A stretch of DNA of 34,323 nt from Chloroflexota bacterium (GTDB lineage Bacteria > Chloroflexota > Limnocylindria > P2-11E), in the NCBI GenBank assembly GCA_005889405.1, contig VBFY01000073.1, positions 1-34,323 on the forward strand. The letters are read 5' to 3'. Every line of letters starts with the position of its first letter. Position 1 is the first letter of the stretch. The notes under the pieces are model-generated. The model saw nothing but the letters and a program-made list of their open reading frames with translations, was not told the DNA's origin and did not search any database. Positions 11,983-24,114 of this stretch are shown in pieces. The position numbers were made by a program, and so were the translations under genes.

Positions 11983-12702
11983 GTGAGCGGCCGCGCGTAT
12001 GTCGGCACGTCAGGCTGGTCGTACACGTCGTGGCGGCCGAAGTTCTACCCCGAGGGCACGAAGAGCGCGGATTTCCTTCGCTACTACGCCACGCGCTTCT
12101 CCACCATCGAGATCAACTACACCTTTAACCACCTGCCGACCGAGAAGAACGTCGCCCAGTGGACGGAGGCGACGGCCGACGATTTCGTCTTCGGGCTGAA
12201 GGCGTCACAACAGATCACGCATCGCATGCAGCTGCGCGAGCCCGCCGAAACGCTGCCGATCTTCTTCGAACGTGCGCGCCTGCTCGGGAGGCGGCTCGGG
12301 CCGATCCTCTTCCAGACGCCACCGTGGGTGAAACGTGACGACGATCGACTCGCGATGTTCCTCGCGGCGCTGCCCCGCGACGTGAGGTGCGTTCTTGAGG
12401 TGCGCGACACCTCCTGGTACGCCGCCGACGTCTACGAGCTGCTCCGCACGGCGAATGTCGCGCTCGTGCACGCGGAGGGGGAGAAGGCGCCGTCGCCGGT
12501 CGAAACGCTCAGCACGACGGCGAACTTCGCGTACGCGCGTCTCCGGAACCGCAGCGGCTACACCGACGACGAGGTCGACGCCTGGGCGGCGCGGATGCGC
12601 GAGATCCTTGACTCGGGCAAGGACGTGTACGCCTACTTCCGCCACGACGAGGACGGATCGAACGCCCTGTCGGCGGAGCGCTTGCGACGCGCGATCTCAT
12701 AA
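11983..12702 (+). CDS. DUF72 family protein (TIM-barrel-like)
   Basis: This 239-residue cytoplasmic protein shows the family's clear signature: YVGTSGWSYTSWRPKFYPEG at residues 6-25, the FSTIEINYTFNHLP segment, FGLKASQQITH, GPILFQTPP, and FRHDEDGSNA near the C-terminus. DUF72 (YecE-like) proteins adopt a TIM-barrel fold; a biochemical role is not established, though a nuclease-like or metal-dependent function has been suggested. Length matches the family (about 230-260). The start is GTG at 11983, 7 nt after the transporter stop. The TAA stop overlaps an ATA codon that may be the start of the next gene. Confidence 0.93.
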   Translation: MSGRAYVGTSGWSYTSWRPKFYPEGTKSADFLRYYATRFSTIEINYTFNHLPTEKNVAQWTEATADDFVFGLKASQQITHRMQLREPAETLPIFFERARLLGRRLGPILFQTPPWVKRDDDRLAMFLAALPRDVRCVLEVRDTSWYAADVYELLRTANVALVHAEGEKAPSPVETLSTTANFAYARLRNRSGYTDDEVDAWAARMREILDSGKDVYAYFRHDEDGSNALSAERLRRAIS

Positions 12703-13680: not shown

Positions 13681-14011
13681 CTGGACTACCCGCTCGATCT
13701 CCGGTTCCGGCTCATCTCGCTGGGGCCACAGATCACCGTCCTCGACGCCGGCGCCCGATCGGTCGCGTACGTCAAGCAGTAGGCGTTCCGTCTGAAGCAG
13801 GACGTCGAGGTCCAGCCGATCGGCGACATCCACCAAAAGGAGCTACCTCGTCAGTCGCGGCGGCGAGTCGATCCTCGAGGTCCGCAAGCGTCCTGCGCTC
13901 TTTGAGGGACGGTTCTCGATCGAGCAGATCGGCACCGTCGATCCGCGTAGCGAGGCGCTATTCCTGGCGAGCGTGCCGATGATGGTCCTGCTCGAGCGCG
14001 GGAGAGGCTAA
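13681..14011 (+). pseudogene. Decayed LURP-one-related/Tubby C-terminal-like gene
   Basis: Reading from CTG 13681 gives LDYPLDLRFRLISLGPQI and then TVLDAGARSVAYVKQ, followed by an in-frame TAG (13780-13782) where the family has Lys, then AFRLKQDVEV. The reading frame is lost around 13831-13841. A second frame beginning near 13841 gives SYLVSRGGESILEVRKRPAL and ends EALFLASVPMMVLLERGRG with a TAA at 14009. Both ends match the start and finish of LURP-one/Tubby-like proteins of roughly 160-200 residues, so the middle has been deleted as well. No ATG opens the gene. The stop overlaps the antiporter stop on the other strand (shared CTAA). Loss by stop codon, frameshift and internal deletion points to genuine decay rather than one sequencing error. 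Confidence 0.75.
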
Positions 14012-15141
14012 GCGGCTTTCGGGAAGAGACGCGCGCCGACCGCGGATGCGGCGATCGTGATCGCCGCGGCGGCGAGAACGGCGCTGAACTGACCGGCTGA
14101 GACGACGCCCGCAGCGAGGCCCAGGCCCATGACGACGAAGCTGAACTCGCCGATCTGGCCCAGGCCGACGCCGAGCTGCGCGCGCCGCGCCGGTACCGAG
14201 AACACCGCGGCGAGCCCGGTGATCGTCACGATCTTCAACATGACGAGCAGGAGGACCAGGCCGAGCACGCCCGCCTCGCTGACCACCGTCGCCGGCTCGA
14301 CCAGCGTTCCGATCGCGACGAAGAACATGACCGCGAAGAGATCGCGGAACGGCAGCACCTCGCGCCGCGCCTCCTGCGCCTCAGGTCGAATGGATAGGAG
14401 GAGTCCCGCGACGAACGCGGCGAGCGCGACGGGGACGCCGAACACCACGGCTCCGATGCCGGCGTTCGCGAGAGCCACTGAGACGGCGACGATGAGGAAG
14501 ATGTCCGGCTGCTCGCGCACGCGCGCCAGCAGCCAGGGCATGACCACGAGCTGCGCGACCGCGGCAAAGCCGACGAACGCGAACGCTTTGCCGAACGCGA
14601 ACGCCGGAGCATCGCCGCTCGGTGCGAGGAGCACGGCAAGGATCGTGGCCGCGACGAGCGTGACCGCGTCCTGAAGGATCGCCCACACCACGAGCGCGCG
14701 ATCGGTCACGGCGTCCGTGGTCCGCCTGCGGCTGCGGGTGATGTTCACTACGACGACGGAGCTGGAGAGCGCGACCGCGAGGCCCAGCGTGACCGCTCCG
14801 AGTGGGCCGGTGCCCAGCCAGGTGAAGGCGACCGCGCCGGCGAGGGTGCCGATCGCGATCTGTAGCGGGACGGCGAGCAGGATGCCGCGCGGCTCGCGCC
14901 GCAGCGCGCGCAGGTCGAGTTCGATGCCGACCTCGAATAGGAGCAAGACGACGCCGACGTCGGCCAGCACCTGGATCTGGTGACGGTCGGCGACGTATCC
15001 CGGCGTGAACGGTCCGACGAAGAGGCCGACCACCAGGTAGCCGAGGACCGCGGGAAGGCCGAGCCGCCGGCTGACCGCGCCCACGAGCGCGGCTGCTAAC
15101 AAGACGACTCCGATCTCGAGGACTGGGACTGCCTGAGGCAC
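14008..15141 (-). CDS. CPA2-type cation:proton antiporter (membrane domain only)
   Basis: This 377-residue polytopic protein of the KefB/GerN/NapA (Na_H_Exchanger) family exchanges Na+ or K+ for H+. About 11-13 helices are visible; typical phrases are LGLPAVLGYLVVGLFVGPF, LLLFEVGIELDL and ALSSSVVVVNI near the front and LGQIGEFSFVVMGLGLAAGV near the end. The protein stops after the membrane domain: the TrkA-N/RCK nucleotide-binding domain found in KefB/KefC is missing, and no separate TrkA gene is nearby. The GTG start at 15141 has a TAGCCT hexamer 6 nt upstream and no Shine-Dalgarno. Confidence 0.92.
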   Translation of the reverse strand: MPQAVPVLEIGVVLLAAALVGAVSRRLGLPAVLGYLVVGLFVGPFTPGYVADRHQIQVLADVGVVLLLFEVGIELDLRALRREPRGILLAVPLQIAIGTLAGAVAFTWLGTGPLGAVTLGLAVALSSSVVVVNITRSRRRTTDAVTDRALVVWAILQDAVTLVAATILAVLLAPSGDAPAFAFGKAFAFVGFAAVAQLVVMPWLLARVREQPDIFLIVAVSVALANAGIGAVVFGVPVALAAFVAGLLLSIRPEAQEARREVLPFRDLFAVMFFVAIGTLVEPATVVSEAGVLGLVLLLVMLKIVTITGLAAVFSVPARRAQLGVGLGQIGEFSFVVMGLGLAAGVVSAGQFSAVLAAAAITIAASAVGARLFPKAA

Positions 15142-15375: not shown

Positions 15376-17508
15376 CTAGCTGGAGGGCACGTCCCAGTCC
15401 GCTGGGAGGATGTGTATCCAGGTCTGGCCAGGCGACAGATAGATCTTCTGGTTGTAGAAGTTCGTGAAGACGAACGGGTCGGTGTACGACGCGCGGGACC
15501 AGGTGCCGTCCTGCCGGTGGCCGTCCCGGAAGATGCTCGCCTTGCCGACGCCGGTGAGTCGCATATCGAGGCTCGGCGCGCCGCCCGCGTCGTCGACCAC
15601 GTCGGTGACCCAGATGTCGGTGTTGATGATCACGACGTTCCGCGCGGCGATCGCCTGCCCGTTCATGCCATCGACCTCGGGGACGTAGTTCAGCGCGGAG
15701 CTCGCACTCTGCAGGCGAGAGTACGTGCGTGACCCGGCGTCGTAGTGATACAGGACGCGCGCGTCCAGCCGATAGGGGATGAGTATGTTGCTCGCAGGGA
15801 TGCTGCCGACAAGTCCGCCGGCCGTATCCGCGTGGTTGGCGGAAGCGAGGAAGTCCCAGCGCGGAACGTCGACCGGGCCGCCGCCACCGACGGATGCGGT
15901 GGCCTCGCGGAGCGCCTGCGATGACGTGAAGAGGTTGTGCGGGGCGACCTTTCCGTCGACGTTGGTGCGATAGAAGGTGCTGCCCTGGCCGAGCTGCGGC
16001 GAGACGCCAACGTACGCGCCGCGCTCGATATCACCGCGCACCAAACCCTCCATGAGCTGTGACGCGCCCGAGAACACGAGCGACCCGCGCACCATCGGTG
16101 TGGTGTAACGGTCCGAGAAGCGGACGCTTCGGACCGCCCCGATCGTGTCCGGATCCTGCGAGTGGAAGTACGCCGCGAGGCGCGTGATGAAGCCCTCAAC
16201 GAGGAGCTCGATGACCATGTCCGCCTGGCTGATCCCGTAGTGGGGGCGCGCGGTCGGCGCGTTGTCGATCTTCACCGCGAGCGGCCGGCGCAGCGGGCTC
16301 GGGCCTCCGGGGACCACCGGCATCCCATTCAGCGGCCAGCACGAAACGCACGCGAGCTTCTGCACCTCGCCCGGCGGCGTGATCCAGGTGTCGGGCTGGA
16401 ACGTGAACGCCGCGGTGCCGGTGTTGCTCAGGGCGCCGACGTGTGTCGTGCCGTCGCCGAGCGCGGAGATCGTCGCGGCGTCCCCCTTGCCGTCCTTGTT
16501 CCAGTCGCCAGCGACGATGCCGGTGTTGCTCCAGGCGAGCACCCCGGGTCCGAACGTGGCGATGCCGCTGACGTCGCGCAGCGCGAAGCGCGACGCGGCC
16601 GACAGCAGATGGACACGCGTGCTTCCATCGCCGTACGAATACATCGTGAGGATGTCCGTCATGCCGTCGCCGTCGACGTCCGCCGCGGCCCACTTCGCCT
16701 TCGTCATGTCGAAGAAGCCCGTGGGCGATGACCACATGCCCGTCCATCCGCCGATCGGCTGAAGTCCGCGCGGCGACGGATCGAAGATGTGGATCTTGAT
16801 CTGGAAGTTCGGGTACTGGTAGATCATCGCGACCTGGTCGACGCCGTCGGTGCGTGTGAAATGTCCGGTGAGGAAGCGCGCCTTCGACGAATCGATCTGA
16901 CCGGGACCGGAGTCGTACGCGCCACCGTCGCCGGCGTAGAAGAGACCAGATCCCGTGGCGATCAGGTAGAGGAACTTGAGCTGGAAGTTGTCGAGCTGAT
17001 ACGGGATGAGGAGACCGGTCTTCGGGGTGCCGTCCCAAACGCCCGCGAGGAGGCCCTGGGCGCGGTTCCAGTCGAAGTTCGTGTGTCGCCACCACCCGGC
17101 GTTCCCGGTGTAGGCGAAGGTCGTGCCGGTCGAGAGCCACACGACGATGTGAACGGTGACGCCGCCGTCGTTGTAGAGGACCGCGATGTCGGTCTTCTTG
17201 TCGCCGTTGAGGTCGACGGCGACCGGCTTCATGCGCGAGACGTCGAAGTGGTTCGCGCCCTCGAGGAACCACTCGGTGTGCGTGAACTTGCCGTCGGCGC
17301 CGCGGTCGAGCACGACGATCCGCAGACCGAAGTCGTCGTTCGGATCGTAGATGGAGGCGATCTGCTGCGTTCCGTTCCCCCGGAAGTCGCCGACGAGGCT
17401 GAAACCGTTGGCGAGGGTCTGCGCCGCGGCGCCGCCTCCGCCGGGCTCGAAAGCCGGGATGAGGCTGAGCGAGAGCACGAAGGTCAGGAAAAGCGTGAGG
17501 AGCCTCAC
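15376..17508 (-). CDS. Secreted FG-GAP/VCBS repeat protein fused to a DUF3048 (YerB-like) domain
   Basis: This 710-residue exported protein has a signal peptide at ~1-29 (MRLLTLFLTFVLSLSLIPAF, then a Gly/Ala-rich stretch ending AAAQ). Residues ~35-370 hold FG-GAP/VCBS-like blades with calcium-binding loops: DLNGDKKTD (99-107), DVDGDGMTD (278-286) and DWNKDGKGD (335-343). A two-cysteine linker (CVSC, 387-390) leads to a DUF3048 domain (~405-705) recognisable by RPLAVKIDNAPTARPHYGIS and by IGAVRSVRFSDRY. DUF3048 proteins (B. subtilis YerB) are usually lipoproteins of ~330 residues with poorly known roles in the cell envelope. The fusion to a propeller is unusual. The GTG start is supported by the signal peptide; no Shine-Dalgarno is evident, and the gene lies 54 nt downstream of the FAD oxidoreductase. 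Confidence 0.85.
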   Translation of the reverse strand: MRLLTLFLTFVLSLSLIPAFEPGGGGAAAQTLANGFSLVGDFRGNGTQQIASIYDPNDDFGLRIVVLDRGADGKFTHTEWFLEGANHFDVSRMKPVAVDLNGDKKTDIAVLYNDGGVTVHIVVWLSTGTTFAYTGNAGWWRHTNFDWNRAQGLLAGVWDGTPKTGLLIPYQLDNFQLKFLYLIATGSGLFYAGDGGAYDSGPGQIDSSKARFLTGHFTRTDGVDQVAMIYQYPNFQIKIHIFDPSPRGLQPIGGWTGMWSSPTGFFDMTKAKWAAADVDGDGMTDILTMYSYGDGSTRVHLLSAASRFALRDVSGIATFGPGVLAWSNTGIVAGDWNKDGKGDAATISALGDGTTHVGALSNTGTAAFTFQPDTWITPPGEVQKLACVSCWPLNGMPVVPGGPSPLRRPLAVKIDNAPTARPHYGISQADMVIELLVEGFITRLAAYFHSQDPDTIGAVRSVRFSDRYTTPMVRGSLVFSGASQLMEGLVRGDIERGAYVGVSPQLGQGSTFYRTNVDGKVAPHNLFTSSQALREATASVGGGGPVDVPRWDFLASANHADTAGGLVGSIPASNILIPYRLDARVLYHYDAGSRTYSRLQSASSALNYVPEVDGMNGQAIAARNVVIINTDIWVTDVVDDAGGAPSLDMRLTGVGKASIFRDGHRQDGTWSRASYTDPFVFTNFYNQKIYLSPGQTWIHILPADWDVPSS

Positions 17509-17562: not shown

Positions 17563-19071
17563 CTAGCCGAAGAGACGGTCCTCGTACGGGACGGCGCCGA
17601 TCGCTTCGCGCTTCGTCCGTCCCGAAAGCAGATGCTCGGCCATCGTGATCCCCATCTCCGAGGCGATATCCATGTCGACGTACTTGTAGAGGCCCTGCCG
17701 GCCGCCGGTCACGAGATCGTCGAAGCGCATCAGCTCGTCGACGAGAGTCTGCATCACCGCCTCGAAGCCGACGAGATAGACCGGGTAGCCGGTCGTCGAG
17801 CGCAGGACGACGCACTCGGCGACGTCCTCCTCGCGGCAGAAGCCCTCCGCCGCGAGCTCCCGCGCGCAGCGCCGGCCGAGGTCCGCGGCGGTCGCCGTCC
17901 AGATCGCGTCGCCCGTCTCGCAGGTGATGTCGCACAGCACGACCGTCTCGTCCGGCGGACAGATCTCCGTGCCGCCGTAGTTCCGCGTCTCCGACACGCG
18001 GTTGAAGGTCTTGTCTTGGAAGTACACGGACTGCGCCGGCAGCACCTTCGGCTTCCGGAAGCGCAGACCGACGATCGTGAGCGCGCGGAAGCGGAGCTCG
18101 CGCGCCGCCCGTTGCGCGGCGGGCGACACGCCGTCGCCGAGGAGCGCGAAGAGCGCCGGCAGCGGCAGCGTATTCACCACGCGGTCGCACTCGATCCGCT
18201 CCTCGGCGCCCTCGAAGCGGTACGTCTCGAGCCCCGGCTCCGTTCCGGTGGCGATGAGACAGAGCTGCCCGTCCTGCGCCGTCGACGCGACGCGCCGATA
18301 GCGAACGGCGCTGACGCGGTCGCCGGTGAGCTCGAGCCCCGTGACGAGAGCGCGCGTGATGACGCGGTTGTCCGGCGATGCCGCGCGGATGCGGTCGGCC
18401 ATGCGCTGCGAGACGAGCCCGGCGCCTTTGGGCGGGTAGTACAGCTGCACGACGAGCGGTGCGTACTTGTGCTCGCCTTCGGTGATCTTGTCGAGGCCCT
18501 GACGGAACGAGCTCACCGCGACCTTCCACAGATTGATCTGCGGGATGCGGTGCTGCGCGAAGGACGCCGCGAGCTGCGAGGGCGGGATCCCCCAGACCTT
18601 CGTCGTATACGGACCGAAGAACATCCCGTAGAGGGTCTTGCCCATCCCCTGGATGACCCAGTCTTCGGCCGAGACCATCTTCCGCGGCCGCACGCGCTTG
18701 CGCACGACCTCGATGAAGTAGTCGAAGAACGCGCGCGCCGCGAGGAGCGGCGACATGCTCCGCGCGATGTCCATCGCCTCGAGCGGGTATTTGTAGTACT
18801 TGCCGCGGAACTTGATGCGCACGTTCTTCGCCCGCGCGGGAAAGCCGTCCGACGCGATCTCCTTGAACATGTCGAGCACGCGCTGATTCCGCGCGTGATA
18901 CGCGTGCGGTCCGAAGTCGTAGCCGGCGTTCGTCGCGCCGCGCAGCGTGGTCGCGAGACCGCCGAGGAAATCCTGCGCCTCGAGCAGCGTGACGCGCTCG
19001 CCGTGCTCGGCCAGCGTGAAGCCGGCGGCGAGCCCGCAGATGCCGCCGCCGAGCACGACCGTATGGCTCAG
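17563..19071 (-). CDS. FAD-dependent oxidoreductase, UDP-galactopyranose mutase/amine-oxidase-like
   Basis: This 502-residue flavoprotein has an N-terminal Rossmann dinucleotide-binding motif (SHTVVLGGGICGLAAGF, GGGICG) and a following acidic residue in TLLEAQDFLGG. Next come the FGPHAYH segment and a C-terminal FAD contact region (TGGRQGLYKYVDMDIASEMG) that resembles glycan-related FAD proteins. It is close to UDP-galactopyranose mutases and protoporphyrinogen-oxidase-like NAD(P)/FAD enzymes, so the reaction is uncertain; location beside sugar acylation genes favours a sugar substrate. The start is put at CTG 19071: AGGAGG (19077-19082) sits 5 nt before it, and the residues it adds complete the first beta strand. 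The next canonical start, GTG 19056, would lie 20 nt from that ribosome-binding site and cut into the strand. Confidence 0.82.
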   Translation of the reverse strand: MSHTVVLGGGICGLAAGFTLAEHGERVTLLEAQDFLGGLATTLRGATNAGYDFGPHAYHARNQRVLDMFKEIASDGFPARAKNVRIKFRGKYYKYPLEAMDIARSMSPLLAARAFFDYFIEVVRKRVRPRKMVSAEDWVIQGMGKTLYGMFFGPYTTKVWGIPPSQLAASFAQHRIPQINLWKVAVSSFRQGLDKITEGEHKYAPLVVQLYYPPKGAGLVSQRMADRIRAASPDNRVITRALVTGLELTGDRVSAVRYRRVASTAQDGQLCLIATGTEPGLETYRFEGAEERIECDRVVNTLPLPALFALLGDGVSPAAQRAARELRFRALTIVGLRFRKPKVLPAQSVYFQDKTFNRVSETRNYGGTEICPPDETVVLCDITCETGDAIWTATAADLGRRCARELAAEGFCREEDVAECVVLRSTTGYPVYLVGFEAVMQTLVDELMRFDDLVTGGRQGLYKYVDMDIASEMGITMAEHLLSGRTKREAIGAVPYEDRLFG

Positions 19072-19076
19072 GGAGA

Positions 19077-19082
19077 CCTCCT
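19077..19082 (-). promoter_or_regulatory. Shine-Dalgarno AGGAGG that decides a CTG start
   Basis: On the minus strand AGGAGG is followed by TCTCC and then CTG (19071). This is ideal spacing for CTG and poor spacing for the downstream GTG at 19056. Confidence 0.7.
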
Positions 19083-19102
19083 GGAAGTGGCCTGGGTGCG
19101 GC

Positions 19103-20005
19103 TCAGGGTAAGCGGTAGACGTGCAGGTCGCTGGCCACGCGCTCGCCGGGCGCGACGTCCTTGGTGATCGTCGCGCCGATGACGATCGCCGAACGATCGC
19201 CGAGCCGGACGCCGCTCGATATCACCACCTGCGGACCGATCCACACCTCGTCGCCGACGACGACGCTCCCGGAGAGCGTGGCTCCCGCGGCGACGAGGCA
19301 CCGCGCACCGATACGCACCGAGTGCGCGACGTGAACGAGGTTATCGATCTTCGTGTCGTCGCCGATGCGCGTCGCGACGCGGAACAGACTACGGTCGACC
19401 GTCGAGTTCGCCTGCACCTCGACGCGCGCGCCGAGCTCGACCGACCCGGCGTGAGGGACGGCGACGTTCGTCGTGCCGTAGTCCCACTCCGCGCGCGACT
19501 TGCGGCCCTGACGCATCGCCGGGCCCTTGAACTCGAAGCCCTCGGAGCCGAGGACCGCGCCGGCGCGGACGATCGTGTCGTCGCCGATCGCGACGCGCTC
19601 GAGGATCGTCGCGTTCGGCTCGACGACCACACGCGCGCCGATGCGCACGTTCCGCGGTGCGACGTACGCGCGCTCGTGCACGCGCGCGCTCGGGTCGATC
19701 GTCGTCGCGAAGTCGCGCCAGTAGAAGTCGCTCGAGCGGTGCAGCCAGCGGTGCAGGTCGTAGAACGCGGACTCGGGATGGTCAGCGGTCGCCAGGCCCA
19801 GAGACGACGGCACGCCGCCGGCGAGCTCGGCCGTCGTGACGACCGCGACCGCGGCGCTCGTCTTGCCGAGGCGCTCCAGCGAGCGCGCGTCGCCGGCGTA
19901 GACCAGCACGCGACCGTCGTTCGCGCCGAGGAGCGCGAGGTCGTCGAATGCCGCGTCGCGTACGACGCGAAACGGAGAGTGCTTCGCGGCGTCGCTGAGC
20001 TTCAT
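19103..20005 (-). CDS. LpxD-like N-acyltransferase (left-handed beta-helix)
   Basis: This 300-residue protein resembles UDP-3-O-acylglucosamine N-acyltransferase (LpxD), which transfers an acyl chain from acyl-ACP to the 2-amine of a sugar nucleotide. Residues 1-100 form the mixed N-terminal domain that in LpxD binds uridine. From ~102 hexapeptide repeats build a left-handed beta-helix (IDPSARVHERAYVAPRNV onwards). The LpxD landmark LGSEGFEF (152-159) and the catalytic-histidine region DNLVHVAHSVRIG with H228 are kept. A short C-terminus replaces the long ACP-binding helix of E. coli LpxD (341 residues). No other lipid A gene is in the window. The start at ATG 20005 was chosen because TAGAGT lies 7 nt upstream; an upstream start would overlap the divergent gene. 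Confidence 0.85.
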   Translation of the reverse strand: MKLSDAAKHSPFRVVRDAAFDDLALLGANDGRVLVYAGDARSLERLGKTSAAVAVVTTAELAGGVPSSLGLATADHPESAFYDLHRWLHRSSDFYWRDFATTIDPSARVHERAYVAPRNVRIGARVVVEPNATILERVAIGDDTIVRAGAVLGSEGFEFKGPAMRQGRKSRAEWDYGTTNVAVPHAGSVELGARVEVQANSTVDRSLFRVATRIGDDTKIDNLVHVAHSVRIGARCLVAAGATLSGSVVVGDEVWIGPQVVISSGVRLGDRSAIVIGATITKDVAPGERVASDLHVYRLP

Positions 20006-20012
20006 CGCGCGC

Positions 20013-20018
20013 ACTCTA
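20013..20018 (-). promoter_or_regulatory. -10-like hexamer TAGAGT (leaderless, minus strand)
   Basis: TAGAGT ends 7 nt before the ATG at 20005 on the minus strand. Together with TAGGAT on the plus strand it packs two divergent start signals into a 29-bp gap. Confidence 0.5.
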
Positions 20019-20022
20019 CCCG

Positions 20023-20028
20023 TAGGAT
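20023..20028 (+). promoter_or_regulatory. -10-like hexamer TAGGAT (leaderless, plus strand)
   Basis: TAGGAT ends 6 nt before the GTG at 20035, with only CG-rich sequence between and no Shine-Dalgarno. Confidence 0.5.
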
Positions 20029-20034
20029 TCGCGC

Positions 20035-20826
20035 GTGTTCGAACCGACATCGCTCGAGGCGGTGCGTCCCTACACGCGCGAGACCTCGCCGCTCTGCTTC
20101 ACGACCGACATCGAGTGGGCACCCGACTGGGCCATCCGTGACCTCTTCGAGCTCGCGGATGAGTACGGCGTGCCGCTCGTTCCGTTCCTCACGCATCGTT
20201 CGGACTACCTCGATCGTCGTCTGCGCGACGGCTCACCGGACGTCGGGCTCCATCCGAACTTCTTGCCCGGCAGCACGCACGGCGCAACGGTCGACGAGGT
20301 CATCGCGACGACGAGGGCGCTCTGGCCGGACGCGGTCTCGTTCCGTTCGCATTGTTTCTCCGACGACACGCGGATGCTGCGGAGGATGGCCGACGCGGGC
20401 TTCCGCTACGACTCGAACGTGTTCGCGTTCCTGCAGCCGATGCTCGCGCCGTTTCGCTCTGTTGCCGGGACGGTGCGTCTGCCGGTGTTCTGGGAGGACG
20501 ACGTGCACTCCGGCAACCAACTTCCGTGGGATGCCGGTGCACTGCGCCCTGCGTTCGACGCGCCGGGTCTGAAGATCGTGAACGTCCATCCCGTTCGTGT
20601 GGCGCTCAACGTCCCGGACGAGGTCTTCGCCGAGTCGCACAGGCGGATCGGTTCGGCCGTCGATGTCGACCCGCGTGCCGAGGCGCACCCGGGAAGGGGC
20701 ACGCGGACATTCCTGGAGCAACTGTTCGCGCACGCCACACGCGGCGACCGGCGGCCGGTGCGGCTTCGCGACCTGTACGAACAAGCGGTCGACCGAGGCA
20801 TCGGCGCGCGCGACGGACGGGCCTAA
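20035..20826 (+). CDS. Polysaccharide deacetylase-like protein (NodB-related)
   Basis: The 263-residue product has the layout of carbohydrate esterase family 4: an early acidic metal/catalytic motif (CFTTDIEWAPDW, residues ~22-33), a mid-protein HPN motif in VGLHPNFLPGSTHG (~69-82), and FRSHCFSDDTRMLRRM (~103-118) that resembles the catalytic R-x-P/H region. IVNVHPVRVALN near the C-terminal third supplies the usual late histidine. Such enzymes remove N-acetyl groups from amino sugars in nucleotide- or polymer-linked form. It lacks a signal peptide, which suggests a cytoplasmic substrate, consistent with a sugar nucleotide or lipid-linked sugar. The divergent neighbour is the LpxD-like acyltransferase; the next gene is a ketoacyl synthase 10 nt downstream. 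Confidence 0.72.
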   Translation: MFEPTSLEAVRPYTRETSPLCFTTDIEWAPDWAIRDLFELADEYGVPLVPFLTHRSDYLDRRLRDGSPDVGLHPNFLPGSTHGATVDEVIATTRALWPDAVSFRSHCFSDDTRMLRRMADAGFRYDSNVFAFLQPMLAPFRSVAGTVRLPVFWEDDVHSGNQLPWDAGALRPAFDAPGLKIVNVHPVRVALNVPDEVFAESHRRIGSAVDVDPRAEAHPGRGTRTFLEQLFAHATRGDRRPVRLRDLYEQAVDRGIGARDGRA

Positions 20827-20829
20827 ACT
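20824..20829 (+). promoter_or_regulatory. -10-like hexamer TAAACT overlapping the preceding stop codon
   Basis: The TAA of TAAACT is also the stop of the deacetylase gene. It ends 7 nt before the GTG at 20837. Confidence 0.4.
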
Positions 20830-20836
20830 CGGGGCC

Positions 20837-21865
20837 GTGCGCGTCGCAGCGATACAGGCGCTCGAGCACCATCTCCCCGAGCGCCGTCTCAAGAACGATG
20901 AGCTCGCGAAGCTCTATCCGGACTGGTCGGCCCAGAAGATCTTCGACAAGACCGGTATCCGGGAGCGTCGCGTCGTGGCTCCGGACGAGTTCGCGTCGGA
21001 CCTCGGTGCAGCCGCTGCGGAGAAGCTGTTCGCCCGCACCGGGATCGACCGCGCCACGGTCGACCTCCTCGTGTACTGCACGCAGAGCCCCGACTACTTC
21101 CTACCCACCACGGCGTGCATCCTTCAGGAGCGGCTCGGTCTTCCGACCACGACCGCGGCGTTCGACTACAACCTCGGCTGCTCGGCCTTCCCGTACGGGC
21201 TGGCGATGATCCGCGGCCTCATCGAGACCGGCGCCGCGTCAACGGCGCTCCTCGTCATGGCCGAGACCTATTCGCGCTTCATCCATCCGATGGACAGGAG
21301 CGTTCGCACGCTGTTCGGCGACGCCGCAAGCGCGGTGCTCGTTACCGCGACGGAGCGCGAGGCGCCGACGCTCGGGCCGTTCGTTCTCGGCACCGACGGG
21401 AAGGGTGCGAACAACCTCATCGTGAAGCGCGGCGGGATCCGCCAGCCGATCGGCACGGAGCCGCTCGTCGAGACCACGGACAACAGCGGCAACGTGCGCA
21501 CCGAAGCGAACCTCTACATGAACGGCCCGGCGATCCTCGAGTTCACGATCCGGCGCATCCCTGCCGTGTTCAAGGAGCTGCTCGCGCGCGCGGAGGTGAC
21601 GCTGAGCGACGTGCGGTGGGTGATCATGCATCAGGCTAATGAATACATGCTCCGCTACCTGCAGAAGAAGATCGGGATCCCCGACGAGAAGTTCGCGGTG
21701 CATCTCGAGCACTGCGGCAACACTGTGTCGTCGACGATCCCCATCGTGCTCCAGCACCTGGTGAAAGAGGGGCAGGTCAAGCGCGACGACCTTCTTCTCA
21801 CCCTGGGCTTCGGTGTCGGGTACTCGTGGGGCGCGAACCTCATCCGCTGGAGCCCCGACCGCTGA
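20837..21865 (+). CDS. 3-oxoacyl-ACP synthase III (FabH/KAS III-like)
   Basis: This 342-residue thiolase-fold condensing enzyme starts acyl chains by joining an acyl-CoA primer to malonyl-ACP. The catalytic triad is complete: C115 in FDYNLGCSAFPYGL, H265 in VIMHQANEYML and N295 in HCGNTVSSTIP. The C-terminal glycine motif GFGVGYSWGANLIRW is present. KAS III relatives also include HMG-CoA-synthase-like and alkyl-quinolone-type enzymes, so the primer is uncertain. The GTG start is placed by homology (VRVAAIQALEHHLPERRL) and by the TAAACT box 7 nt upstream. It is followed 25 nt later by a dedicated ACP, indicating a local acyl-ACP supply for the neighbouring acyltransferase. Confidence 0.92.
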   Translation: MRVAAIQALEHHLPERRLKNDELAKLYPDWSAQKIFDKTGIRERRVVAPDEFASDLGAAAAEKLFARTGIDRATVDLLVYCTQSPDYFLPTTACILQERLGLPTTTAAFDYNLGCSAFPYGLAMIRGLIETGAASTALLVMAETYSRFIHPMDRSVRTLFGDAASAVLVTATEREAPTLGPFVLGTDGKGANNLIVKRGGIRQPIGTEPLVETTDNSGNVRTEANLYMNGPAILEFTIRRIPAVFKELLARAEVTLSDVRWVIMHQANEYMLRYLQKKIGIPDEKFAVHLEHCGNTVSSTIPIVLQHLVKEGQVKRDDLLLTLGFGVGYSWGANLIRWSPDR

Positions 21866-21890: not shown

Positions 21891-22115
21891 GTGAACGAAC
21901 AGGAGTTCCTGCGGGGTCTACGCGACCGACTCGCCTGGCCCGACCTCGGACCTGACACCCGGCTCTCCGGCGACGAGCGTTGGGACTCGCTCGCCCAGGT
22001 CGATGTCGTGATGTACGTACAGGACGAGCTGGGACACACGCTTCCGGCGGATGAGCTGCAGAACGTCACGCAGGCGCGCGACCTCGTGGGACTGGTAAGA
22101 GACAGGCTCGCCTAG
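21891..22115 (+). CDS. Acyl carrier protein-like protein
   Basis: This 74-residue helical acidic protein carries the phosphopantetheine attachment serine S33 in the context ERWDSLAQVDVVMYVQDELG, the expected position and length for a stand-alone ACP. The Trp in WDSL is common in discrete ACPs of secondary or glycolipid pathways, whereas canonical fatty-acid ACPs have the DSLD/V motif. The start at GTG 21891 avoids a 26-residue unrelated extension overlapping the synthase. The gene probably receives acyl chains from the adjacent KAS III. Its stop overlaps the sucD stop on the opposite strand (shared CTAG). Confidence 0.88.
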   Translation: MNEQEFLRGLRDRLAWPDLGPDTRLSGDERWDSLAQVDVVMYVQDELGHTLPADELQNVTQARDLVGLVRDRLA

Positions 22116-22981
22116 CTGCGCAGTGCCTCTTTCACGAGGCGCGGGATCTCGCTCGGCGCATTCGCGACGGGGATTCCGGCGGCCTCGAACGCCTTCACCT
22201 TCGATTCCGCGGTGCCCTGATTGCCGGAGACGATCGCGCCTGCGTGCCCCATCCGCTTTCCGGGCGGCGCGGAGCGGCCGGCGATGAACGCGACCGTCGG
22301 CTTCTTGCTGTTCGCGCGTAAGTACTCGGCGGCGCTCTCCTCGGAGCTGCCGCCGATCTCGCCGACGATCACGATCACTTCGGTCGCGGGATCCTCGTTG
22401 AGCAGCCGTACCGCCGCCGGGGTCGGCAGGCCGATCACGGGATCTCCGCCGATGCCCAGGCACGTCGACTGACCGAGGCCCGCGCGGCTCAGGAGATCGG
22501 CGATCTCGTAGGTGAGCGTGCCGCTGCGCGAGACGAACCCTACCGGTCCCGGCTTGAAGTTCTCCGCCGGCATGATCCCGATCTTGCATTCGCCGGGTGT
22601 GATGGCGCCGGGACAGTTAGGGCCGATGAGCGTCGTCGCGGCGCGATCGAGCACCGACGCGACCTTGAGCATGTCCTGCACCGGCGTGCCCTCGGTGATC
22701 GCGATCACGAGATCGAGCTCGGCGTCAAGGGCCTCGAGCATCGCGTCCATCGCCCCGGATGCGGGCACGAAGATGATCGAAGCGTTCGCGCCGGTCTCGA
22801 CCGTCGCGCGCGAGACCGTGTCGAAGATCGGGAAGCCTTCGCGCGTCGTGCCGCCCGCACCGGGCACGACACCGCCGACGACCTTCGTGCCGTACTCGCG
22901 CATGCGCGTCGCGTGGAACGTGCCCTCGCGCCCCATGCCCTGCACCAGGACGCGCGTGTCGCGACCAAGGAGGACGCTCAT
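22112..22981 (-). CDS. sucD: Succinate-CoA ligase, alpha subunit
   Basis: This is the alpha subunit of succinyl-CoA synthetase, which makes ATP or GTP in the TCA cycle. The 289-residue product matches the family length. It shows the CoA-binding N-terminal Rossmann domain ([15 protein letters not shown]), [21 protein letters not shown] in the middle, and the phosphohistidine loop GHAGAIV near residue 250. The ATG at 22981 overlaps the TGA of sucC (ATGA), so the two subunits are translationally coupled. It converges on the ACP gene with a 4-nt overlap of stop codons. Confidence 0.97.
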
Positions 22982-24114
22982 GCCCTCCCTGCCAGCACGA
23001 CAGCTTCTGCGGCTGCGTCGTCCATCGTCGCCTTCGAGACGAGCTTCGCCCCTTCGAGTAGCCGTCGCCCTGCCTCGGCCTCGGTGCCCGACAGCCGGAT
23101 GACGAGCGGCACGCTCGGCGGATGCGTCGTGATCACCGAGAGGATCCCTCTCGCGACCTCGTCGCCACGCGTGATACCGCCGAAGATGTTGACTAGAACG
23201 CTCTTCACCTTCGGGTTCGCGAGCACGATCTCGAGCGCCGACCGCACCACGGATTCCTTCGCTCCACCGCCGACGTCGAGAAAATTCGCGGCGTTCCCGC
23301 CGGCATTGCGTACCGCGTCGAGCGTCGCCATTACCAGGCCGGCCCCATTCCCGATGACGCCGACGTTCCCGTCGAGCTGCACGTAGCTGAAACCGAGCGC
23401 GCGAGCGCGCTCCTCGACCTCCTCGTCGGGCGAGATCTCCTTCCAATCGCGCAGCTCGGTCTGGCGGAAGAGCGCGTTGTCGTCCATGTCGAGCTTCGCG
23501 TCACCTGCGAGCACGCTGCCATCGGTCTGGATGAACAGCGGATTGACCTCGACGAGCATCGCGTCGGTCCGCGCATACACGCCGTAGAGATTGATCGCGA
23601 TGTCCGCGATCGCGTTTCGTTGCGCCGCGGGAATGCCTGCGTCGAAGCACAGCGCCCTCGCCTGATAGGGGAGGAGTCCCACGAGCGGATCCGGCCAGCC
23701 ACGCGCGATCTTCTCGGGATCGTTCTCGGCGACCTCTTCGATGTCCATCCCGCCGACGGTCGACAACATCACCACCGGGCGCCGGCGATCCCGGTCGAGC
23801 GTGATACCTAGGTACAGCTCGCTCGCGATCTGCGCGCCGCGCTCGACCAGGACCTTGCGCACCCGCAGTCCTTTTATCTGCATGTGCAGGATCGTCGAGG
23901 CGTGCTCGCGCGCCTCGGCCGGTGTCTTCGCCACCTTGATGCCGCCGGCCTTCCCCCGTCCGCCGGCGTGCACCTGCGCTTTCACCACGACGGTGCCGCC
24001 GAGTGCCCGCGCCGCTGCCTCCGCCTCCTCATGCGTCGTCGCGAGACGACCCTCGGGGATGGGGATGCCGGCGCGCGCGAGCAGCTGCTTCGCCTGGTAC
24101 TCGTGGAGCTTCAC
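22978..24114 (-). CDS. sucC: Succinate-CoA ligase, beta subunit
   Basis: This is the ATP-grasp subunit of succinyl-CoA synthetase and gives nucleotide and succinate specificity. The 378-residue product begins VKLHEYQAKQLLARAGIP, the near-invariant start of SucC. It contains VVVKAQVHAGGRGKAGGIK (ATP-grasp), EVNPLFI and GNGAGLVMATLD, then NIFGGITRGDEVARG near the C-terminus. The GTG at 24114 is chosen by that homology; upstream in-frame ATG codons would add up to 77 unrelated residues. It is divergent from the P-loop gene by 31 nt containing a shared GATATC that may serve both -10 regions. sucC precedes sucD with a 4-nt overlap. Confidence 0.97.
   Translation of the reverse strand: MKLHEYQAKQLLARAGIPIPEGRLATTHEEAEAAARALGGTVVVKAQVHAGGRGKAGGIKVAKTPAEAREHASTILHMQIKGLRVRKVLVERGAQIASELYLGITLDRDRRRPVVMLSTVGGMDIEEVAENDPEKIARGWPDPLVGLLPYQARALCFDAGIPAAQRNAIADIAINLYGVYARTDAMLVEVNPLFIQTDGSVLAGDAKLDMDDNALFRQTELRDWKEISPDEEVEERARALGFSYVQLDGNVGVIGNGAGLVMATLDAVRNAGGNAANFLDVGGGAKESVVRSALEIVLANPKVKSVLVNIFGGITRGDEVARGILSVITTHPPSVPLVIRLSGTEAEAGRRLLEGAKLVSKATMDDAAAEAVVLAGRA

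Follow-up and report, generated by a model that had tools for sequence, protein, structure and literature searches.

One gene in the 34,323-nucleotide stretch of Chloroflexota DNA analysed here (the window) raises the question of what DUF3048, a domain of unknown function also present in YerB of Bacillus subtilis, is doing behind a large FG-GAP propeller. The features of the gene and of its neighbours are collected in Table 1. The open reading frame starts with GTG, and by eye it encodes a signal peptide with the stretch GGAAA-Q. By eye there is no lipobox, and a similar N-terminus is found in the other members of its lineage (lineage A, described below) whose N-terminus is visible. DUF3048 and DUF3048_C are matched with 111.3 and 76.2 bits against a curated Pfam cut-off of 25 each, and the FG-GAP families are matched modestly but above their curated cut-offs (FG-GAP_3, 33.4 bits over three stretches; FG-GAP, 29.1 bits). 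The pattern of the calcium-type loop occurs 3 times in the protein, compared with a mean of 0.0075 and a maximum of 1 in 2000 shuffles of it, so that the three loops lie far above chance level. Two of them are 58 residues apart, the length of one blade, and the third is 178 residues (three blades) off; full loops are thus present in three of the six predicted blades. The preliminary description of this DNA had recognised FG-GAP loops and a complete DUF3048 in a single exported polypeptide, which the reading frame, the Pfam matches and the orthologues bear out, export being judged by eye.

Table 1. Positions in the window of the propeller-DUF3048 gene, its parts and neighbouring genes.
Feature	Position	Strand	Basis
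Propeller-DUF3048 protein, 710 aa, lineage A	15376..17508	minus	ORF, Pfam, orthologues
Signal peptide, residues 1-29, AxA-Q type, without lipobox	17422..17508	minus	translation, by eye
Six-bladed FG-GAP propeller (predicted), residues 35-376	16381..17406	minus	predicted models, Pfam, 9oee match
Ca-type loop DLNGDKKTD, residues 99-107, blade 2	17188..17214	minus	pattern count
Ca-type loop DVDGDGMTD, residues 277-285, blade 5	16654..16680	minus	pattern count
Ca-type loop DWNKDGKGD, residues 335-343, blade 6	16480..16506	minus	pattern count
CVSC at joint, residues 387-390, ahead of WPL	16339..16350	minus	cysteine count, row comparison
DUF3048 N-terminal domain, residues 407-539	15892..16290	minus	Pfam, 2psb match
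DUF3048 C-terminal domain (DUF3048_C), residues 578-698	15415..15777	minus	Pfam, 2psb match
Neighbour: FAD amine-oxidoreductase-like gene	17563..19056	minus	Pfam Amino_oxidase above cut-off; closest NCBIfam models PRK07208, below cut-off
Neighbour: Na_H_Exchanger family antiporter, CPA2-like	14008..15141	minus	Pfam; NCBIfam below cut-off
Syntenic marker: CoA-ligase (succinyl-CoA-ligase-like) gene	22112..23446	minus	locus comparison
Syntenic marker: DUF72 gene	11983..12702	plus	Pfam, locus comparison

The fold was approached with two structure predictions. The first model covered all 710 residues and was built from an alignment of five rows; its propeller is usable, with four strands listed in each of six repeats, and its DUF3048 half (pLDDT mostly 20-39) is too poor for use. 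The second, an AlphaFold2 model of residues 31-386 from a four-row alignment (pLDDT 73.7, pTM 0.79), likewise has six repeats, with four listed strands per repeat and three in the fifth. A propeller had been expected from structure prediction of both halves, and six blades are predicted in both models; for the other half the prediction yielded nothing usable, and the fold of DUF3048 therefore rests on sequence similarity to B. subtilis YerB (2psb; phmmer E 1e-20, about residues 406-706).

Among solved structures, the propeller model is matched best by 9oee, UmbA4, a six-bladed lectin of Streptomyces umbrella particles (Foldseek E 1.4e-17, TMq 0.83), which is also the best PDB match by sequence (phmmer E 4.1e-17). 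Comparison of the model with 9oee by VIA gave a Z of 34.1 over 337 aligned residues (rmsd 2.6, 25% identity), the next row having a Z of 19.5; Kelch proteins occupy rows 2 and 3, and lectins make up 15 of the 19 entries in rows 2-20. The molecule in 9oee is named 'Secreted esterase', and the entry title gives UmbA4 with S. griseus TUA. According to PMC13274773, the structure is that of UmbA4 from S. coelicolor in complex with a teichuronic-acid-like polymer from S. griseus; the propeller binds this teichuronic-acid-like wall polymer, the sugar contacts Tyr551, Trp668 and Asn633 were probed by mutation, and the pocket positions differ from blade to blade (PMC13274773). The two propellers are alike in their FG-GAP/Ca-loop repeats and in having six blades, as predicted for the window protein. 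They differ in that the window propeller is attached to DUF3048 and has no known place in a toxin particle. No trypsin family corresponding to the N-terminal trypsin-like domain of the UmbA type appeared among Pfam matches up to E 1, and the propeller already begins at residue 35. Elsewhere, Streptomyces clavuligerus has a distant relative of the propeller fused to a transglycosylase domain. In a plasmid collection 31 records match the window protein, none over 80% of the query, and the 30 matches listed each fall within one half except for an unannotated Embleya match to residues 30-428.

Homology to UmbA4, from which we infer sugar binding, supports glycan binding by the window propeller well. 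The contacts were compared at a fixed offset, using a numbering offset of 31 that was deduced from the letters. The equivalents of Tyr551/Trp668 in the six blades are I, V, L, I, H and G, and those of Asn633 are A, H, F, Q, F and V, the first of which precedes the propeller. None of the three contact residues is conserved at this fixed offset in the six blades, which suggests that the ligand of the window protein is probably a different one. Shifts of one residue would supply H in blade 4 and, in blade 3, N as well as F or Y, which gives the alignment some latitude. The earlier proposal that the propeller may provide ligand or glycan binding is supported in that a propeller is predicted and its closest solved relative is a wall-glycopolymer lectin.

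Both Pfam halves of YerB (PF11258 and PF17479) are present above cut-off in the window protein, which differs from 2psb in having no visible lipobox, a large N-terminal propeller and a CxxC ahead of WPL. Of the 177 class genomes searched, 122 contain PF11258, and B. subtilis scored positive as a control. Residues E438, R443, R460, S461, R463, R514 and N525 are conserved in at least 95% of 58 rows and could serve structure or binding; we know of no catalytic residue in DUF3048. One article reports that the function of DUF3048 could not be assigned (PMC13068155). YerB is named in sporulation gene lists (PMC3416734, PMC4433262), and in a figure legend cell adhesion and biofilm formation are assigned to a 'yerB (COG1470)', which need not be a DUF3048 gene (PMC10849945). 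The preliminary description held that DUF3048 proteins normally stand alone as lipoproteins. Many do, with a lipobox recognisable by eye (L001, L066, L067 and others), but in the phylum DUF3048 is also fused to other N-terminal domains, at 9 of 16 loci (PEGA at 6, Big_2 at 1, Big_5 at 2); the 16 loci were chosen for long frames and 9 of them were scanned, so that the proportion does not measure how common such fusions are. Such proteins resemble the window protein in placing DUF3048 after an N-terminal beta-rich module and differ from it in the modules used and in coming from other families of the phylum. In one genome (G192) two Big_5-DUF3048 genes stand side by side in tandem (L145:983-4182, minus strand), and adjoining DUF3048 pairs were likewise seen in G006, G009, G011, G012, G015, G019 and G025.

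Of the 28 genomes sampled from one uncultured family, f1, 19 carry the fusion, which forms two paralogous lineages, A and B. Across the class, 31 of 177 genomes have propeller matches; 19 of these are strong and all in f1, where they fall in reading frames that encode DUF3048, and the remaining 12, in other families, are short and weak (E 5e-6 to 8e-4). No strong propeller match was found in the 149 class genomes outside f1. Matches to the whole protein occur in as many as 239 of the 400 genomes searched in the phylum, most of them via DUF3048 among the matches listed; in that listing, matches that cover the greater part of both halves are confined to f1 (8 genomes). No more than two candidates were scored in each genome and the strongest rows alone were listed, so that rare fusions may have been missed. 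A match in G034, of family f3, spans residues 295-702 and so starts ahead of the joint, with no propeller match in its frame. G001, a genus-mate of the window genome that is 97% complete, has a DUF3048 match and no propeller match. Among the f1 copies, that in G023 (C21) is frameshifted and those in G018, G021 and G024 are cut by contig ends. The closest named records are Chloroflexi metagenome genomes, from soil to judge by their depth-labelled sample names. The pairing was thus seen in f1 only, within the sampled class and among the phylum matches listed, and we found no description of it in the literature. The propeller-DUF3048 protein is a new architecture built of known domains.

The two lineages are marked by their N-termini and joints. 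Lineage A, to which the window gene belongs, has no visible lipobox and a CxxC or CxxxC joint; lineage B, which includes a paralogue from the same genome (L003, C51) and others, has a lipobox by eye and a single joint cysteine. Since all 14 rows with the single-cysteine joint have a second cysteine 52-54 residues upstream, in or beside the last blade, a disulfide staple between the halves is possible in lineage B. One of these rows, L020, has a propeller that branches beside lineage A. Lipobox and propeller coexist in lineage B, and the propeller is therefore not simply a substitute anchor. For the window protein itself, the earlier suggestion that CVSC cross-links the propeller to DUF3048 is ruled out, because Cys387 and Cys390 are its sole cysteines; moreover, the same CxxC-WPL is present in stand-alone lipoproteins that have no propeller. 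CxxC or CxxxC precedes WPL (WAL in L018) in 18 of 32 propeller rows and in all 5 rows that carry the other module described below; of 22 rows that have neither module, 9 show the motif, and several of the 13 that lack it are distant or truncated. This distribution indicates that the joint motif accompanies DUF3048 in this order, and not the fusion. No further cysteine occurs in the propeller of 17 of the 18 CxxC/CxxxC propeller rows, the exception being L010; L019 is a fragment (by eye).

In two genomes, G009 and G019, DUF3048 carries a module of about 160 residues instead of the propeller. The gene lies beside a stand-alone DUF3048, between the CoA-ligase gene and a DUF72-Na/Pi pair. At that position G015, which belongs to the same genus as G019 (G009 represents another), has the propeller, as does G011, whose contig covers one side only. 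The DUF3048 parts of G015 and G011 branch with those of G009 and G019 (support 98/96), and their propellers group with lineage A (support 100/100). A single clade of all 32 propeller-bearing DUF3048 rows was rejected (p-AU 5.7e-5), as was a clade of lineage A with the DUF3048 parts of G015 and G011 (p-AU 1.6e-4), a group that was named after the tree had been seen. The conflict between the trees means that the N-terminal part was exchanged, in either direction, or that the DUF3048 part recombined with a paralogue; on trees and synteny, modules have been exchanged at this locus.

The alternative module, exemplified at L023:1015-1500 (plus strand), belongs to an exported protein and bears the motif WYGQSGY..LCPGDT..ATVAYYNSGS.GW. 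It has matches in all 28 f1 genomes, 2 to 27 in each and 15 in that of the window. Five of nine carriers scanned with Pfam have a partner domain: a NAGPA phosphodiester glycosidase, a DPBB lytic transglycosylase, a polysaccharide deacetylase, GHL10 (with the module at the C-terminus) or GSDH. The GSDH carrier, L163, has a diverged double copy of the module, one copy of which matches N_BRCA1_IG. The other four carriers scanned have no partner above the Pfam cut-off, and in two of them, L146 and L154, a metallopeptidase-like HExxH stretch can be seen by eye. The module itself had no Pfam match in three DUF3048-borne copies and no NCBIfam match in two copies, and a PDB search with one copy returned chance-level rows only (E 0.57 and 0.86). 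DUF3048 thus occupies the place that enzymes take in its sister proteins, and the module has the appearance of a house-style address module for the surface. In G017, a gene for a protein with this module and a polysaccharide deacetylase (L063:7087-8445, plus strand) adjoins the propeller-DUF3048 gene.

The explanation that we favour, with modest confidence, is an exported two-part envelope protein in which a lectin-type, glycan-holding propeller is joined to a DUF3048 effector and the address module is exchangeable. The signal peptide would export the protein, which in lineage A has no visible lipid anchor. The propeller would serve as an address module of the lectin type and keep the protein attached to a glycan of the surface, probably a wall glycopolymer; in lineage A it would provide retention. 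DUF3048/YerB would be the effector part, whose target is probably an envelope polymer. The address module would be exchangeable, given that the same-locus DUF3048 of related genomes bears another one, and this swap among relatives suggests that DUF3048 works on the cell envelope. A bolder version, plausible although we rate it somewhat short of an even chance, makes DUF3048 an envelope-polymer enzyme addressed by plug-in modules, either the UmbA4-like propeller or a possibly Nbr1-Ig-like module that is reused on many wall enzymes. Were this true, it would offer a first way into the function of DUF3048. DUF3048 is widespread, and both its fusion to a relative of a wall-glycopolymer lectin and the swap with a wall-enzyme module indicate where to look.

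PEGA and Big domains are common in surface proteins, and their presence on other DUF3048 proteins of the phylum would also suit a structural component of the envelope or S-layer, with the propeller as a calcium-dependent, integrin-like scaffold for protein-protein contacts and DUF3048 as a non-catalytic binder. The three calcium-type loops, the integrin alpha chains among the Foldseek rows and the high VIA ranks of the Kelch proteins point the same way. Propellers of the integrin type, which are treated for bacteria in PMC3192720, share FG-GAP repeats with Ca-type loops with the window protein, but they have seven blades, whereas six are predicted here in both models, and the fold match is weaker, the integrin rows reaching a TMq of about 0.5 compared with 0.83 for UmbA4. 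Together with the preponderance of lectins in the VIA ranking, this leaves the scaffold an unlikely reading. That the fusion arose by chance or in assembly, two adjacent genes being read as one, is scarcely credible: the assembly is fragmented (114 contigs), but each half has its own Pfam and PDB matches, and full-length orthologues (97, 90 and 66% identity), present in many assemblies, speak against a chimera.

DUF3048 might instead be a partner of LCP proteins, with ligase or hydrolase activity on a wall polymer. In the sister family f4, of which 7 of 16 genomes were compared, DUF3048 lies less than 1 kb from an LCP gene in five of the seven (G027:C6, G029:C7, G031:C9, G037:C192 and G039:C66), the distance in the other two being 2.7 kb and 17.9 kb. 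However, the f4 cases may represent one inherited arrangement, and by eye none of the listed DUF3048 matches in 35 other phylum genomes has an LCP gene within 3 kb. Among the genomes compared, the neighbourhood is thus confined to f4, and it was rejected as a general link, and we consider a partnership with LCP proteins quite improbable. Kinship of DUF3048 with the LCP family was rejected as well: an hhalign comparison with 12 LCP proteins from related genomes gave a probability of 0.1%, and the positive control gave 99.9%.

Returning to the window, the stretch from the CoA-ligase genes to the propeller gene (17563-21865) contains genes for the FAD enzyme, a hexapeptide acyltransferase-like protein, a WbmS-like polysaccharide deacetylase and a KAS III-like protein, which possibly form a small surface-glycan or lipid cluster.
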